NCBI GenBank assembly: GCA_012845835.1
Contig: JABAKD010000006.1
Location: 7,424,637-7,488,636, forward strand
From: Undaria pinnatifida
Taxonomy: Eukaryota > Sar > Phaeophyceae > Laminariales > Alariaceae
Direction: 5' to 3'
Length of the DNA stretch: 64,000 nucleotides
In this document: in pieces, positions 3,491 to 59,569 of the stretch
Numbering within the stretch: the first letter of the stretch is position 1
Layout: every line of letters starts with the position of its first letter
Notes under the pieces: model-generated
Seen by the model: the letters and a program-made list of their open reading frames with translations, nothing else
Databases searched by the model: none
Told to the model about the DNA's origin: nothing
Program-made: the position numbers and the translations under genes

Positions 3491-4489
3491 AGGCGGTGTT
3501 GTTGCAGACCCAGCCGGAGGCGTTCCGTCTTCTCGCGAAGCACATGGGTTACACATGCCACCATGGGCGTTTCTCCGGCCCACGGATCCCATTGGCCACC
3601 CATGGGAACCCATGGGCAATCCTTGGGTTGCCCATGGATCACCACGGATCACGATGGTTTAGTAATGGTTACCCATGGGTCGATAGCAATAATGGCACTG
3701 GTGGGTCACCCACGGGTCACCCATGGATCACCCATGGATCACCCATGCGTTGCCCATGGGTTACCCATGCATCACCACGGGTCAACCAGGGCTTAGTGAT
3801 GGTAGGCCATGTATTGCATTTGGATCATCAGTAGTGATAGCTCATGGGTCACCCGTAGGTTGCCCATCGGTTGCCCATCGTTGCCAATAGGTTGTTCTCT
3901 CGGTCCATGGGTCTCCCATGAGTCACTCATGGGCAATCCATGGGCAGCATGGGTTACCAATGAGTCACCGTGGATCACCGGTGACTTAGTGTTGGTAGGC
4001 CATGATGAGTTGCCCATGGGTTATAGTGATGGCCCATGGGTTACCAACGGGTTTCCCATACGTTTCAGTGGGTCATCCATGTCTTAGTGGTGATAACCAT
4101 TGGGTTGCTCATGGATCGATAAAGTGATAGCTCATAATGGGTCAACCATGAGTCACCGATGGATGGGTTGCCCATGGGATGCCCATGGGTTGTTCTCCTA
4201 AGGGTAGCTTACCACTTCATACTCGAAAAAGTGGTTGGTATATACGCTCAGAATGGTATCTAGTATCCCTATCCGTACCCTTAGCTCTGGCTGCATCATA
4301 CTCAATCAATCAATGTAGGGTTATTCCCCTTGGTCGCATGGACTACACAGTGTGGCTGAACAATTTTCTTCGATAGCTCGTAAGCTCTCCCTAGCTCTTC
4401 TCGTGCATTGGTATCCCATCCATGTGGATCGCCCATTATGACTAATTGTGGTGGTAGCCCATGGGCTGCCCATTGGTCGAAAGTGATAG

Positions 4490-4859
4490 TGTTGAGGAAT
4501 TAGTGAGGTATTAGTCCGTTTGACCACTTGCAACTGGCTAGCCAATAGCTTACCCAAACCAAGCCTTATAACACTCTTCCCCCCTGAAACGGCGGGATAG
4601 CAGGTCGGCCGGATATACGGCGGACCTGTCAATATAAGCCGTTTCCTTTCCTGGGGACACCAGGGAGAGGTTTTTTCAAGTTCGACATGGGGAAAATCTG
4701 AAAAGTTTATTATTGTGGATGGTGGGGATCGAACCCACGACCCAAAAACCCATGGTCCTGCCGACGACGCCATTTGTTGAGGAATTAGTGGGGTATTATT
4801 CCGTTTGACCACTTGCAACTGGTTAACCAATAGCTTACCCAAAGCTAAGCCCTATTACA
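4490..4859 (-). mobile_element. Small LTR element (TRIM-like), copy 1, with internal tRNA-like sequence
   Basis: Direct terminal repeats lie at 4490-4573 and 4775-4859. On the plus strand they start TGTT and end ACA. The element sits between two ATAG tetranucleotides (4486-4489 and 4860-4863), read as a 4-bp target duplication. In the minus orientation the order is canonical: LTR, then AATGGCGTCGTCG as a primer-binding-site candidate, a tRNA-like segment, a spacer, a purine run AGGGGGGAAGAG, then the second LTR. There is no coding capacity. It splits the CCATGG array, so it is younger than that array. Confidence 0.85.
4716..4774 (-). other. tRNA-like segment inside the small LTR element
   Basis: On the minus strand the segment ends with a perfect T-arm, GTGGG-TTCGATC-CCCAC, containing a Pol III B-box (GGTTCGATCCC). 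An A-box-like TGGCGTCGTCGG lies about 40 nt upstream. The D-arm and acceptor stem are not intact, so it is not a functional tRNA gene. The same segment is present in the other copies of this element. Confidence 0.7.
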
Positions 4860-5411
4860 ATAGTCCATGGGTCACCCATGGGTCACCCAAGACTTAGTGG
4901 TGGTAGCCCATGGGTTTCCCATGGGTTGCCCATAGGTCACCCATAGCCCACCACGAGTCGCCCATGGGCTATGCATAGCACAACAAACACATGGATCATC
5001 CATGAGTAGCCTGTTAGAAGCGCGTCAGTTGTCCATGGGTTTCCCATGGATTATCACAAGTAACCCATGGGCCATACATGGGTAGCCAGTGGGTTACCGG
5101 TGGACCTCACATGGGTCGCCAATGGATCGTCCATGGGTTACCCATGGGTTGTCCACGGGTTGCCCGCAGGTTGCCCATGCGTCATGGGTTGCCCATGACT
5201 TTATTTTGGTGGCTGCCCATGGATAGTACGTGGGTGAGCCATATGTTGCCCATGTGTTGCCGATGATACGGTGGTGCTAGCCCATGGATAGCCCTTAGAT
5301 TGCCCATGGGCAATCCATGGGCAACCCATGGGTTTTTCATGGGCCGCACATGGCTTTCCAAGGGTATCCCGTGGAAGCGTGCCGAAAATGCCTGGCACCA
5401 AAAGTGAAAAT

Positions 5412-19073: not shown

Positions 19074-20110
19074 TCAGCAAAAGTTCGATGACAAGTGTTC
19101 GATAATCATGAGAACCGCGTTGCAGTGCTTTGCGGTTGCACTGTGGGAGTGACGCGCCACAGCACGCACAGTGTTGGCGATATTTGACCTTGACATGACT
19201 GTCAGCCACATTAGGCCTCCAACAGCCTCCCCGTAGGCCCAAGTGCCATCAGAGTCGCCCTCCACCCTCGTTCCTAAGTCCGCACCTGGGTAATCGAGGT
19301 AGAGGGAAGTCGTGGTCACGTCGAATCGCCTCGCAAGGGTCTCAGCGAAGAAAACAGTCAAAACGGTGCTGAGCTTACTCGTCTCCAGGTCCTGCGTTCG
19401 CGCACACCCCATATAGAAATAAAGCTTTCCGAGGCCGTGCGTCGCGAAATCCTCGTTGCGCACCACGACTATCTTGTCAATTTCATCCCTCGGATCAGCT
19501 GCCGCCATATCGTCTATATGGACAATCAAGACCGATACTACCTATACCTCCCGAATTGGACGAAACACGCAGAGGTCAGTTTTGCACTGCTCCATACCAT
19601 ACCCAGTAACCAACTTCACAGCCGGTGGGTCGTTCCACAACAGTCCACGCTGTCTCAGGCCATAAAAAGCCTCTTCGAGACGCACAAACTTGTCAGACAG
19701 TTCACCACTTCCACCAGGAAGCTTCATGTACACGCAATCCAAGCCAGCCATTGCGAACGCCTGTGCAACATTTATTAATAGGTGGTACGCCTGTACTTCA
19801 GATCATTGGCAACAACCGTCACAATCTTGGCTGATGCCGCAACGGGAGTGGGTGCGAACGTTTGAAGATAGTCCGTACCCACTCTATGCATAAAACCCTT
19901 TGTAAGAAGCCTAGCCTTCGTTTTAGCGATCAACCCTTCCTTGTCAGACTTGTAAGACAGCACCCCCCTACTGTAGACCCAACGGCCTTTTCCATTCGGG
20001 TAGCTTGTCCAACACCGTCAATGCCTTCGATTCTGCAAGTACCTGCGTTTACTTATCCATAGTCTGGTACCACGCCTCCAAATATCGCGACCGGTTTACA
20101 CCTGCTACCG
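19074..20110 (-). pseudogene. Copia reverse transcriptase
   Basis: Three frames together give the copia RT order. YKSDKEGLIAKTKARLLTKG with TFAPT lies at about 19850-19963. VYMKLPGG with GLRQRGLLW lies at about 19640-19735. VHIDDM, the catalytic DD box, is at about 19507-19523, followed by ETLARRFDV and GGLMWLTVMSRSNIA. The start of the domain (EAWYQTMDK) is near 20070. Frameshifts at about 19540 and 19760 and stops near 20000 inactivate it. Confidence 0.9.
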
Positions 20111-49915: not shown

Positions 49916-50292
49916 TGTTAAGGTATTAGAGGGGTATTAGTCCGTTTGACCACTTGCAAAAAGTTAACCAATAGGTTACCCACACTAAGCCTTATAGCAC
50001 TCCCTCACTGAAATGGCGGGATAGCAGGTCGGCCGGATATACGGACGGACGTGTCAATATCCAAGCGGTTTCATTTCCTGGGGATACCGGGGAGGGTTTT
50101 TTTCAAGTTCGACATGGGGAAAGTCTGAAAGCAATTATTATTGTGGATGATGGGATTTGAACCCCACGACCCAAAAAACTCATGGTCTGTCGACGACGCC
50201 ATTCGTTGAGGAACTAGTGAGGTATTAGTCCGTTTGACCACTTGCAAATGGTTGACCCGTAATAATAGTTACCCAAACTAAGCCTTATATCA
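49916..50292 (-). mobile_element. Small LTR element (TRIM-like), copy 2
   Basis: LTRs at 49916-49999 and 50204-50292 enclose the tRNA-like segment (GGATTTGAACC...ACGACGCCATT on the plus strand, about 50148-50203). No target duplication is obvious. It is more diverged than copy 1: the right LTR starts CGTT instead of TGTT and has an insertion near 50262. Confidence 0.8.
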
Positions 50293-52882: not shown

Positions 52883-54501
52883 CTAGATCATGAGTCGAAG
52901 ATGCGGCTCCTCAAAACCCACTCCTACACCCCTAGACGGCCTGTGGACCCGGTCGAAGCGCGTCACGAGCTGGCGTATCAGGAGGGTGAAGGCCTCAGGC
53001 CCAGATGCTCCTCCTGCCATAGCTCTTGACACCTCTTGCCTGCCATCACGGCCACCCCACCGTGCTCCGTGCTCGAGGTCGAAGACGATCTGGAGGAGGT
53101 GGACGAGCCGTCCCACGCTGAACGGCCTCTGGCGCTGTTCCGCCGCCCTCCGGTGCCTCCCCCAGAGACGCGGCCCCCACCCCGGTTTTTGCGACCCTAG
53201 GCGGCGTCCTGAGCCACCACCAGCACCCGACGTGCGTCGTTCGCCTCCACCACCACTGCCGCTCTCGCGGCGGTGATGGTGGTCGTCACCCCCACTATTT
53301 TTTCTGCCACCCCCGGAGCCACCACCCCCACGGTGGCGGTCCCCGCGATCGCGACTGTTGCGGTGTTGCTTTTTGTCACGGCGGCGTTCCTCCAACTCCT
53401 CCTCCGGAGTCGGCCATAAACCGGGTTTGTCGGCCTCGTCGTGAGCGATTCTCAGGGCCTTGACAAGGGCAAGGGTCGGGGCGGCTATCGTTTGTTCGGC
53501 ATAGGAGGTGCAATCCATGCGAGCCCAGGCCGCCTCCACTGACAGGGCGTCCGCGTGCAGCAATGCCTGCCATTCTGACGGGAGTAGGGCGGATGCCGTT
53601 TTCACCACCGCGATCATCAACTCCAGAGAGAACTCCACTCTCGGTTCAAACAACATGCACCCGATGCTGCCCTTGGAAAAGTCGTCGTCCCCGGGCGTGG
53701 TCGTTGGGATGCGACACCCTGCGGGCGCGTCGAAGACGAGGAGGCCGCGGTAGCTCCCTCCGCAGCCGACGCAACTGAGTGAGCGAGGGTTTGGCGCGCC
53801 CTCTCTGCCACCACAGACGCTTCCCACGCAGTGTTCTTGGCCTGCTCGATATCCTGGTCATACCGACGTCGGCGCGCTTCACGCTGGAATATCGTCTGTC
53901 TGGCGTCCTCCAGCGCCCGCTGGGTCTGCTTTGCCTCGGGCGCCAAGTCCGAGCGGCCACCATGGGCGCCCCAGTTCCGAGAGCGCTAGGGGTGGCGCTC
54001 TGTCGATCGCGGAGAGCCGATGTGGCGGCGGTGGTCCTCTGTCGAGCGCGGGGAGGCCAGCTGGTGGGGCTCCCTCGGGGCTGGCGAGAACTGGCGCCGA
54101 GACCTCCCCGAGCCTGGTGGAGGTTGGCTCGCCTCCTCCGCTGCGCGAACCGGCGAGTTGATCCTCTTTGTTGGTGAGCCTGGGTGGTGGCCTGGTGGCC
54201 CGTCCTCTGGCTCGCCACCGGAACGCCCCTCCGGAGGCTCCCCCATCCTCGAGTCGCGGGATCTCGAGCATGCTCTCCCTGTCTCACGGTCGATCAAAAT
54301 GGGGCGCGTGGAAGACCTCAGCCTGCCCGAGTAGCCCGCTTCCTCACTGGTAGACACGTTGTTGTCTGTACGGGGGGCAGCGGGGGGAGGGGGAGGGGGG
54401 AAGGGTGGGGGGACGGGAACGGCGCGAGAAGGAGCGATGGAGGCACATATATTGTTGTGGTGTCCCTGCTGCAAATAACGGCAATATCTGTGTGCCAGCA
54501 A
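52883..54501 (-). pseudogene. Gag-like ORF, frameshifted
   Basis: Minus-strand frames together describe a Gag-like protein. An N-terminal Pro/Arg/Ser-rich disordered part lies at 53986-54501. A charged helical segment (REARRRRYDQDIEQAKNTAW) lies near 53800-53945. A segment of folded appearance (CMLFEPRVEFSLELMIAVVK, then LPSEWQALLHADALSVEAAW) lies near 53440-53670. An Arg/Gly-rich basic tail (RDRGDRHRGGGGSGGG) comes last. This order of coiled-coil, capsid-like and basic nucleic-acid-binding parts suits Gag, but I see no CCHC knuckle and no certain family match. The last frame ends about 50 bp before the polypurine-like motif. High GC (about 65%) contrasts with the flanks. Confidence 0.55.
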
Positions 54502-56110: not shown

Positions 56111-57226
56111 CATACACAAAAGAGCAATAGTATTTTCGTTCCAAGACAAAGGGCAACCCCCTCACTGACCGTGCGACAGAAGAAAAGCCAGCATAGACCA
56201 TATAATTAGCGGTCACTAAATTCAAGTTCTGTGGCATGGGAGAGGCAACCCGAAAAAATCTCGAATACGTTTTGCAAGGGGCACACGCACAGCAGCGGAG
56301 GGTGTCAGTACAGCGGTGGAGTCGCATGGTCTGCGGTGGATCGTGTTGGGGTCTGAGAGACGTCGAATTATTGACCCAGGATCTGGTATACTACCTTTCA
56401 ATAGAAAAGATACTGCAGTCTGTCCGACTTTCAAGGTAGAACCAGAAATCGGCGCCTGTACTGAGACCCATATAATAGCCGTCTGTAGGCTTGTACATAA
56501 TGGGAAAAAAAAAATGGGAGCGCCGCCTGTTGTCCGGAGGGTCGAAACGGAGGGGACCAGGCACGGGCTCCGGGGCCGAGGCAATAAGTCATCCTGGCCG
56601 AGTGTCGGCACTTCAAGGAGGTCACGCCAAGGTCGGCCTGGCTTCTTCGGCAAAGTTGTACGATGTCCGATGAAGCCCTCGGAAAGCGGTTTGTCCGTCG
56701 CTGATATTGCTAATGGCCCAGCACGCTTGCCCTTGATTGCGCATATGCCTGGGGATCGAAGCACAACAAAAAAAGGAAGGACGTGTCGGAGGGTGATGCT
56801 GTGGTTTGTGCTGGCTTCTTGCAGAGTTGTGCAGGTAAACGCTGAGCGCAAAGCTGGCTAATTTGTAACATGCTGGCTGAGCGCTGAGCGAACAAGTCCG
56901 GTGGTTGAGGCTTGGGTCGGCTCCTCTGCGAAGTTGAGTGGCAGCTGGCGGAGGGCGAGGCTACCAGAAGGCCTGTCGGGCGTCCAAGCTCAGGGAACCC
57001 TGTTTCCGAAGAACATTGCTCCTGCGTGCCGCATCGTCTGCTGGATGGGTGCCGAGCGACCAAACTATTTTGTATCGAAAAGATCAGAGCTCAAAAATGA
57101 AGCATCTTCTGCGCGAAGACCAAGGGTGTCGCCAATGTGTCGCGCGGACGGTGACTGCCAGGAGGCTCTTGCCGTCTCGCTGTTGTTGTGGTCACCGCCG
57201 GGAGGGAAGAGTACCTCACCAATTGA
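56111..57226. other. Leader of the gag-bearing element, weakly repetitive
   Basis: A diverged unit with GGCTTCTTSNGCARAGTTGT recurs near 56640, 56813 and 56920. A 209-codon minus-strand frame (56222-56851) overlaps a plus-strand frame and shows no domain, so it is not called. Confidence 0.45.
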
Positions 57227-57757
57227 TGTTAAGAAAATTAGTGGGGTATTAGTACGTTTGACCACTTGCAAAAGGTTAACCAATAGCTTACCCAAACTAA
57301 GCCTTATAACACTCTCCCCCCCTGAAACGGCGAAATAGCAGGTCGGCCGGTTATTCGGGCAGACCTACCTGTCAAGGCTTAGTTTGGGTAAGCTGTTGGT
57401 CAACATTTTGCAAGTGGTAAAACGGACTAATACCCCACTAATACCTTAACAAATAAATAAATAATGTCGTCGTCGATAGACCATGGTTTTTTTGGGTCGT
57501 GGTTTCAAGTCCCACATCCACCATAATAAACTTTTTCAGACTTTCCCCATGTTGAACTTGAAAAATACCCTCCCCGGTATACCCAGGAAATGAGACAGCT
57601 TGGATATTGACAGGTCGGCCCGTATATCCGGCCGACCTGGTATCCCGCCGTTTCAGAGGGGAAGAGTATTATAAGGCTTAGTTTGGGTAGGCTACGTGTT
57701 AGTTAGATTCTGCGAGTAAGCGGTCAAACGGACTATTACCTCACTGATACCTTAACA
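57227..57757. mobile_element. Head-to-head pair of small LTR elements (copies 3 and 4) sharing one target duplication
   Basis: The left half is an inverted-orientation LTR (57227-57311) plus a truncated interior to 57375. The right half is a plus-oriented element: LTR 57376-57451, tRNA-like segment about 57462-57525, purine run GAGGGGAAGAG (57656-57666), LTR 57667-57757. TTGA occurs at both outer edges (57223-57226 and 57758-57761), so the whole 531-bp composite behaves as one insertion. It lies inside the gag-bearing element. Confidence 0.78.
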
Positions 57758-57893
57758 TTGAGTTGTCACCGGAACAGAGCAAGAGCCGATCCGCGGGAAA
57801 ACGAAAAAAGCCTACCAAAAATAAAAAGCCCAAGAAGAGCGTATGGTAGGAGGGAGAATGCCACTCATCCCACTTCTGCTCGAAGATGCCATT

Positions 57894-59170: not shown

Positions 59171-59216
59171 GCATGTATAAAAAATGTTCCTCCCATCCAC
59201 CTCATGCTTTTGAGAT

Positions 59217-59569
59217 GTTAGTGGGGTATTAGTCCGTTTGACCACTTGCAAAAGGGTTACCCAAACTAAGCCTTATAACACTTCCCCCCCCGTGAAACGG
59301 CGGGATAGCAGGTCGGCCGGATATACGGGCGGACTTGTCAATATCCAAGCGGTTTCATTTCCTGGGGGTACCGGGGAGAGTAATTTTTAAGTTCGACATG
59401 GGGAAAGTTTGAAAGCAATTATTGTTATGGGTGGTGGGGATCGAACCCACGACCCAAAAACCCATGGTCTGTCGACGACGCCATTTGTTAAGGTATTAGT
59501 GGGGTATTAGTCCGTTTGACCACTTGCAAAAGGTTAACCAGTAGCTTACCCAAACTAAGCCTTATAACA
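59217..59569 (-). mobile_element. Small LTR element (TRIM-like), copy 5
   Basis: LTRs at 59217-59281 (with internal deletions, 65 bp) and 59486-59569 (84 bp). The tRNA-like segment is at about 59430-59485 on the minus strand. Interior similarity to copy 1 is high. No target duplication is visible. Confidence 0.8.

Follow-up and report, generated by a model that had tools for sequence, protein, structure and literature searches.

Organization of the Element and Its Primer-Binding Site

The DNA analysed here (the window) is a stretch of 64,000 nucleotides from the brown alga Undaria pinnatifida (contig JABAKD010000006.1). At its positions 4490..4859 lies a 370-bp element bounded by long terminal repeats (LTRs), and relatives lie at 49916, 59216 and, as a composite, at 57227 (Table 1). 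By every defining feature tested, the element is a terminal-repeat retrotransposon in miniature (TRIM), and the repeats form a high-copy family with LTRs of about 84 bp, an interior of about 200 bp and 4-bp target-site duplications (TSDs). Its primer-binding site (PBS) matches a tRNA-Ser of the same genome. With high confidence, we interpret the tRNA-Ser sequences found at LTR junctions of this genome as copies of the modified primer, made when strong-stop DNA synthesis read through into the tRNA. The source assembly, on which the genome-wide searches were run, comprises 511 Mb in 68 contigs.

In the copy at 4490, LTRs of 84-85 bp flank the interior of about 200 bp. On the minus strand the order is a 5' LTR ending in AACA, two bases, TGGCGTCGTCGGCAGGAC, the interior, a purine tract and the 3' LTR. 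Because the polypurine tract (PPT), the LTR ends and the PBS all fit this strand, the element is read on it. The original prediction, made from the sequence of the window, had described direct LTRs with ends of the TGTT..AACA type at the four sites, a purine run beside the other LTR and a TRIM architecture. All of this was borne out: the purine run is the PPT on the minus strand, and the PPT, the 4-bp TSD and the PBS are those of a TRIM.

The same prediction had raised an unusual primer site and proposed a comparison with the tRNA set of the species. The segment concerned is an exact PBS, and in copy 4490 18/18 nt are complementary to the 3' end, with CCA, of the tRNA-Ser of this genome. The tRNA-Ser genes themselves end in CCTGCCGACGACG; CCA is not encoded, and a T run lies behind. 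Among 94 interiors the exact tRNA-Ser site was present in 24 and the tail GACAGACC in 47. This split depends on retrieval, since part of the interiors were retrieved for their similarity to copy 4490 or with the T-arm described below: the exact site and the GACAGACC tail account for 20 and 21 of the 48 interiors found by similarity, 4 and 23 of the 36 found by the T-arm pattern, and 1 and 5 of the 9 found by the LTR (one of these nine is the 59216 copy itself and one is also in the similarity set). The GACAGACC tail is presumably a second PBS allele inherited through the RNA, and two alleles would be expected if a PBS of which one copy comes from RNA and the other from tRNA is resolved as usual. 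A reading of the LTR-proximal piece as an A-box was rejected, as this piece is the PBS. An extension of the PBS over the anticodon arm would rest on 8 nt, ATGGGTTT, that match the complement of this arm in tRNA-Ser; the match was found by eye and has a chance of about 6% by a rough estimate.

With copy 4490 as the query, the genome gave at least 54 matches (40 scored of 4,710 first-look candidates), and an exact 23-mer over the T-arm occurred 439+424=863 times, compared with 0 for the reversed control. Among the fetched units, 66 begin LTR-interior-LTR, and both ends were located by script in 53; among the 13 left unplaced are the three window copies and a place that occurs under two handles (L038 = L077). 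The placed units showed an exact 4-bp TSD in 38 of 53 cases (0 in 12, 1 in 3), with a chance of about 1/256 each. Such duplications around whole units indicate that the repeats bound single units, and TTGA at both outermost ends of 57227-57757 likewise indicates that the inverted composite was inserted as one unit. No TSD was seen at 49916 or 59216, where the flanks were read by eye. For 50 LTR pairs, three of them from the window, the median divergence was 0.024 and 10 pairs were identical. The copies at 4490 and 49916 (0.083 and 0.143) diverge above this median, and in the LTR pair of the copy at 59216 65/65 aligned bases agree, gaps uncounted.

The original prediction had itself allowed that the terminal repeats might be separate insertions and not LTRs of one unit. 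Inverted and tandem arrangements such as the 57227 composite and the array L074 would suit that idea, but the exact TSDs around whole units (38/53) and the LTR pairs, with 10 of 50 identical and a median divergence of 0.024, make it next to impossible. No Pfam match at E 0.01 was found for the long frame at 4321-4842 on the minus strand, which spans copy 4490, and Pfam gave no match for four window frames. An autonomous partner was not found: eight LTR-retrieved loci (L075-L082) have no longer interior, and no protein search was made.

Table 1. Positions of the TRIM copies in the window and of the parts of copy 4490.
Feature	Position	Strand	Details
TRIM copy, LTR-interior-LTR	4490..4859	minus	TSD ATAG at 4486-4489 and 4860-4863, read directly from the sequence
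5' LTR of copy 4490 (element sense)	4775..4859	minus	91% identity to partner LTR; divergence 0.083 over 84 aligned bases
PBS of 18 nt, 2 nt inside the 5' LTR	4755..4772	minus	100% match to tRNA-Ser(CCA) positions 67-84
T5 run between PBS and B-box, likely RNA polymerase III terminator	4744..4748	minus	sequence; also across the family
T-arm-like hairpin, 10 bp with a C-C mismatch	4716..4744	minus	inner T-arm 4722-4738; B-box GGTTCGATCCC
Second hairpin-like interior stretch (CAGGTC...GACCTG)	4601..4628	minus	pairing judged by eye, without folding
PPT adjoining the 3' LTR	4574..4585	minus	sequence; conserved interior block
3' LTR of copy 4490 (element sense)	4490..4573	minus	sequence and repeat comparison
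TRIM copy with the other PBS allele (GACAGACC tail)	49916..50292	minus	LTR divergence 0.143 over 84 aligned bases
Composite	57227..57757	.	sense unit, nearly complete, joined head-on to an antisense LTR with 52 bp of interior; TSD TTGA at 57223-57226 and 57758-57761
TRIM copy, 3' LTR shortened	59216..59569	minus	PBS allele GACAGACC

Probable Copies of the Primer tRNA at LTR Junctions

A pattern consisting of the tRNA T-arm, the acceptor, three bases and TTTGT was found at 119+146=265 genomic junctions with up to 2 mismatches, and its reversed control gave 0. A 35-mer of the tRNA-Ser 3' half occurred 272 times, genes included, with up to one mismatch (control 0). Besides genes, the search for tRNA-Ser genes gave full tRNA-Ser copies that continue into CCA and an antisense LTR. 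This CCA stands behind the copies only; behind the genes are runs of T4 and up. The Rfam tRNA scores of full copies were 51.2 (L101), 49.0 (L085) and 41.7 bits (L113); when six loci were scored against the Rfam tRNA cut-off, three chimeras were clearly above it and one just reached it.

The junctions take several forms. L058 is a complete element whose 3' LTR is followed by AA and the tRNA-Ser complement from CCA to position 27, and in L044 a tRNA-Ser piece down to position 30 links an LTR to the PPT between two complete units. L074 (G000:C13:866900-875900) is a satellite of 359-bp units, each made of an LTR, a 71-bp tRNA-Ser piece with a snap-back and a TRIM interior; 17 units were compared, and each has 2-3 differences from the first. 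In L049 the 3' LTR is followed by a tRNA-Glu complement with an apparent CCACCA end (29.1 bits, cut-off 29). A tRNA-Glu copy beside an element with a tRNA-Ser PBS suggests a template jump to a second tRNA. AATGG stands after the 3' LTR in four units without an exact 4-bp TSD, and in L058 and L049 it belongs to the copied tRNA. L083 and L092 carry a second LTR family (about 280 bp), in which a full tRNA-Ser copy is joined to a shared 467 plus 229 bp that may be internal sequence.

The copies were then compared with the genes. Eukaryotic tRNA-Ser presumably carries m2,2G26, I34, a modified A37 and m1A58, and inosine is read as G. Twelve sequences without CCA were separated from 54 copies, with the array counted once. 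L154, a copy with an altered CCA before the LTR, was excluded from the genes, which left 11 tRNA-Ser genes; the tRNA-Ser(GCT) genes of L105-L109 were left out as too different. All 11 genes have G26 and A58, and their position 34 is A in 6, C in 4 and T in 1. In the 32 copies reaching position 23 or further, position 26 is A in 25, T in 4, C in 2 and G in 1 (non-G 31/32), position 34 is G in 19, C in 12 and T in 1, and position 58 is T in 15, A in 9, G in 4 and deleted in 4. The A34 of the AGA genes is kept in no copy reading past 34. Mismatches at all other positions amounted to 118/3,432, and the higher values at positions 5 and 76 come from the use of two isoacceptors that differ in the acceptor stem. 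Since the patterns that fetched full-length copies cover tRNA positions 1 to 18, this retrieval leaves positions 26, 34 and 58 unbiased.

Position 58 was also read at the junctions. Of the 265 junctions 100 were listed, 90 of them exact, and 17 of these belong to one array with T at 58 throughout. In the 73 exact junctions among the matches listed, outside the array, a hand count gave T41 G19 A12 C1, i.e., non-A in 61/73. The copies depart from the tRNA-Ser genes mainly at the expected modified positions 26, 34 and 58. According to the available part of PMC4787781, m1A leads to both arrest and misincorporation.

The ends of the copies were examined in 20 of the 73 listed exact junctions (L113-L132). 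These follow the order of the list between C1 and C25, except that junctions fetched before and several more were passed over, and the tRNA 3' part and the LTR start were the sole criteria of choice. BLAST placed the starts of the tRNA sequence at 26-28 in 9 loci and at 36-37 in 5, with the rest at 1, 18, 21, 30, 34 and 43. A stricter gap-free rule gave 26 in 5 and 36-37 in 4, with the rest scattered. Such ends sit where a polymerase coming from the tRNA 3' end would meet the modified positions 37 and 26. Two loci, L130 (CGTA/CGTA) and L131 (TCTG/TCTG), are whole units with TGTT and AACA termini, the tRNA inside and a 4-bp duplication, which indicates that integrase can insert such products; L085 has CTAGCT on both flanks. 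AATGGC or AACGGC stands before the tRNA in L101, L102 and L110, as would be expected if the copied tRNA had formed a fold on its acceptor stem and then primed DNA synthesis on its own PBS end.

Proposed Route and Its Alternatives

If synthesis passed A58, plus-strand strong-stop DNA would have this form, a complete LTR that begins at its PPT-defined end and is joined to the tRNA. As far as the consulted portion of PMC13191261 goes, m1A58 is the stop for plus-strand strong-stop DNA, a tRNA without modification is copied as far as its 5' end, and transfer is served only by products stopping at 58, 55 or 54. We propose that the reverse transcriptase of a partner element extends tRNA-Ser from the PBS, and that plus-strand strong-stop synthesis would then copy the LTR and, of the primer that is still attached, the first 18 nt. 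Synthesis would often miss the stop at the modified A58 and continue into the tRNA, with misincorporation at A58 and G26 and with inosine 34 read as G, until the polymerase drops off beside 37 or 26 or reaches the tRNA 5' end. Normal transfer would be impossible for these read-through DNAs. Rescue could come from a switch of template, from a fold-back of the DNA on the acceptor or anticodon stem of its own tRNA, or from a junction with the PPT, and a part of the rescued DNAs would be integrated.

The junctions might instead represent an amplified tRNA-Ser family of short interspersed elements (SINEs), or an insertion of the TRIM beside tRNA genes, like that of Ty3 in yeast. The scores of L101, L085 and L113 as tRNA and the flank common to L083 and L092 would agree with this. 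However, the joint contains CCA and the exact 2-nt PBS spacer, breakpoints lie inside the tRNA, and the bases at 26, 34 and 58 vary among copies. The same type of joint occurs in more than one LTR family, the left flanks are mostly unrelated except for L083/L092, L086/L111 and TRIM sequence, and true genes continue into T runs and not into CCA and an LTR. We therefore regard this explanation as very improbable.

Several observations weigh against primer copying by read-through. The junctions outnumber the events, since the C13 array is one event and L083 and L092 are copies of one event. Microhomology can blur breakpoints, and the two placement methods partly disagree. In L021 and L057 the AATGG after the 3' LTR is not recognisable as a tRNA copy. 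C at position 34 belongs to the CGA isoacceptor and is no signature, and the read-through copy L119 has G26. In the tRNA-Ser of this organism, m2,2G26, I34 and the modified A37 are expected modifications. Most full-length tRNA copies read show no clear TSD, the clean cases being L130 and L131, plus L085, so that much of the joining was not done by integrase or is obscured. Finally, no parent tRNA of the T-arm inside the element was seen among the fetched tRNA genes compared by eye.

The T-Arm in the Interior

Behind the PBS lies a hairpin with the core GTGGG-TTCGATC-CCCAC, which an outer stem lengthens to 10 bp with one C-C mismatch. An internal tRNA-like segment had been claimed for the family; the T-arm and B-box GGTTCGATCCC are present at 4490, but only the T-arm is tRNA-like, and the part adjoining the LTR is the PBS. 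Such a T-arm was held by 4/20,000 dinucleotide shuffles of the interior, so it exceeds chance. ARAGORN found 0 tRNAs in the element, and Rfam gave no match for it at gathering level. Below the Rfam threshold (E up to 10, positions 4480-4870), the best match was the tRNA-like end of tmRNA (E 0.0028, 12.9 bits, cut-off 47); its alignment stretches thinly across the 5' LTR and takes its score through the T-arm. Two weaker overlapping matches belong to the same clan as tmRNA, which is that of tRNA.

The T-arm belongs to the family and is not peculiar to one copy. The exact B-box is present in 45/48 interiors fetched by similarity to copy 4490 and in 3/9 fetched by the LTR, and the TTCRA loop is kept in 8/9 of the latter. 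By an alignment-based count, the exact loop is present in 80/94 interiors and broken in a few. Conservation of the T-arm was 0.957, compared with an interior mean of 0.934 and 0.98 for other blocks (n=94, some T-arm-retrieved). Pairing of the inner stem is kept in 88-91 of 91 copies and outer pairs break in up to 18/91, and these copies, selected with a pattern requiring the T-loop, say little about loop conservation. Folding z-scores of three stretches were weak (+0.33, -1.20 and -1.03). Between the PBS and the B-box, T5 or more is present in 9/9 LTR-retrieved interiors, and T5-T6 by a stricter pattern in 45/54. Box B is accompanied by a partial box A only, the TGGC of the PBS, followed by the T run.

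The original prediction had read this arrangement as a SINE-like RNA polymerase III (Pol III) promoter. If the T-arm and B-box formed a working promoter, the element would be a Helenus-like TRIMp3 with its promoter moved to the interior. The persistence of TTCRA in 8/9 LTR-retrieved interiors, though the exact sequence is kept in 3/9, is what a constrained B-box would give; the tRNA-like end of tmRNA matches, and the TGGC of the PBS partly matches the A-box consensus at nearly natural spacing. This reading was not supported. The T5 or longer run stands between the boxes, while tRNA-Ser genes end in T4 and up; a transcript from there would miss most of the 5' LTR; no tRNA was found by ARAGORN or at the Rfam cut-off, there is no A-box beyond the partial match made by the PBS, and T-arm conservation is not above background. 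With no whole tRNA found and a T run before the B-box, a functioning Pol III promoter is quite improbable, and a Pol III transcript across the T-arm is unlikely.

A second possibility is that the T-arm is an active leader signal, either a dimerisation or packaging hairpin or a tRNA mimic aiding the loading of tRNA-Ser at the PBS. Its place directly downstream of the PBS, the pairing of its inner stem, the loop consensus in 8/9 LTR-retrieved interiors and its occurrence above chance point in this direction. Against it, there is no real covariation, as the inner pairs hardly vary and the outer ones break, the folding z-scores are low, other interior blocks are equally conserved, and the 91 copies were chosen by a pattern demanding the T-loop. 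We consider such a signal possible though doubtful; it is compatible with the copying of primer tRNAs by read-through. Most likely, the hairpin is an old tRNA-derived piece retained in the RNA leader and not a Pol III promoter. Descent of the T-arm from a tRNA is likely, and some constraint on the loop is possible. A search for its parent tRNA with a predicted-acceptor pattern at one mismatch gave 2 places, compared with 1 for the control.

Other Sequences in the Window

In the second hairpin-like stretch of the interior, one half is highly conserved and the other half (interior positions 141-160) less so. Dense degenerate short repeats of the CCATGGGT type occupy 4860 to 5200, directly after copy 4490. 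A long simple repeat of the GGTGGGGT / GGTCGG type at 1801-2607 opens long low-complexity frames on both strands. On the minus strand, 19074-19529 and 52883-53827 resemble by eye a retroelement polymerase fragment and a low-complexity gag-like protein, with no Pfam match.

Discussion

The element shares with TRIMs its short LTRs, PBS, PPT and TSD, the lack of a known-domain frame, a high copy number and tandems sharing an LTR. Unlike TRIMs generally, it left its primer tRNA at many genomic junctions. SINEs, which lack LTRs and are inserted by the machinery of LINEs, differ from it, as LTRs and a fixed 4-bp TSD are present here. Cassandra is also a TRIM but carries 5S rRNA sequence in its LTRs, and no 5S match was found here by Rfam, the sub-threshold search included. 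The Helenus TRIMs are closer: in the parts of Kojima 2024 (PMC10886601) at hand, they are small LTR elements with tRNA-related sequence, a PBS and a PPT, the animal members likewise have a 4-bp TSD, and tandem arrays are reported for LTR-11_DR. The same parts place Helenus in fungi, animals and plants and state that its tRNA-like sequence was found not to be complementary to the PBS. Helenus is defined by tRNA sequence inside the LTRs, whereas the LTRs here have no Rfam match at cut-off, the T-arm alone is tRNA-like and lies in the interior, and what matches tRNA-Ser is the PBS.

Copied tRNAs joined to LTRs have single-case precedents. From what is available of PMC12220202, these are a circular MMLV DNA in which tRNA-Gly lies between the two LTRs (Colicelli and Goff 1986, as described there) and an HIV provirus whose 3' end carries tRNA-Gly, for which the authors prefer an independent insertion. 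Both cases, as given in that portion, resemble ours in that a mature tRNA, reverse-transcribed together with its CCA, stands at the end of an LTR; they are single laboratory cases with a non-cognate tRNA, whereas here the element's own primer stands at hundreds of genomic junctions with changes at the expected modified positions. Among the papers listed in searches of the open-licence literature, judged by titles and the starts of abstracts, no report of genome-scale primer-tRNA copies was found. The main text of the Ectocarpus transposon landscape (PMC12477816) has 0 occurrences of 'tRNA' and 'primer binding', PMC3747384 has 0 of 'strong-stop' and 'primer', and PMC5322556 has 0 of 'strong-stop' and 'CCA'.

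The modified positions readable in these copies would be 26, 34, 37 and 58. On balance we favour the view that the genome is a DNA archive of reverse-transcribed modified primer tRNAs, in which read-through was frequent and the T-arm and the SINE-type chimeras arose by the same route. Ohshima and Okada reportedly proposed that tRNA-derived SINEs come from strong-stop DNA with its primer tRNA, a model that predicts chimeras of primer tRNA and LTR. Their model concerns the ancestral birth of a SINE, whereas most of the chimeras examined here look like separate events and not like a multiplying family.

If the genome is such an archive, tRNA pieces enter element interiors by read-through, which would explain the T-arm inside the TRIM, and read-through also yields chimeras headed by a tRNA, like those proposed as ancestors of SINEs. 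Plus-strand strong-stop DNA is generally taken to halt at m1A58, and the hundreds of junctions apparently record failures of this stop, with the modification state kept in DNA. The annotation of tRNAs in such genomes may mistake copied primers for genes. Through such junctions, tRNA modification and the fidelity of reverse transcriptase could be studied in assemblies alone, and they are a natural test case for the idea that tRNA-derived SINEs start as strong-stop DNA plus primer.
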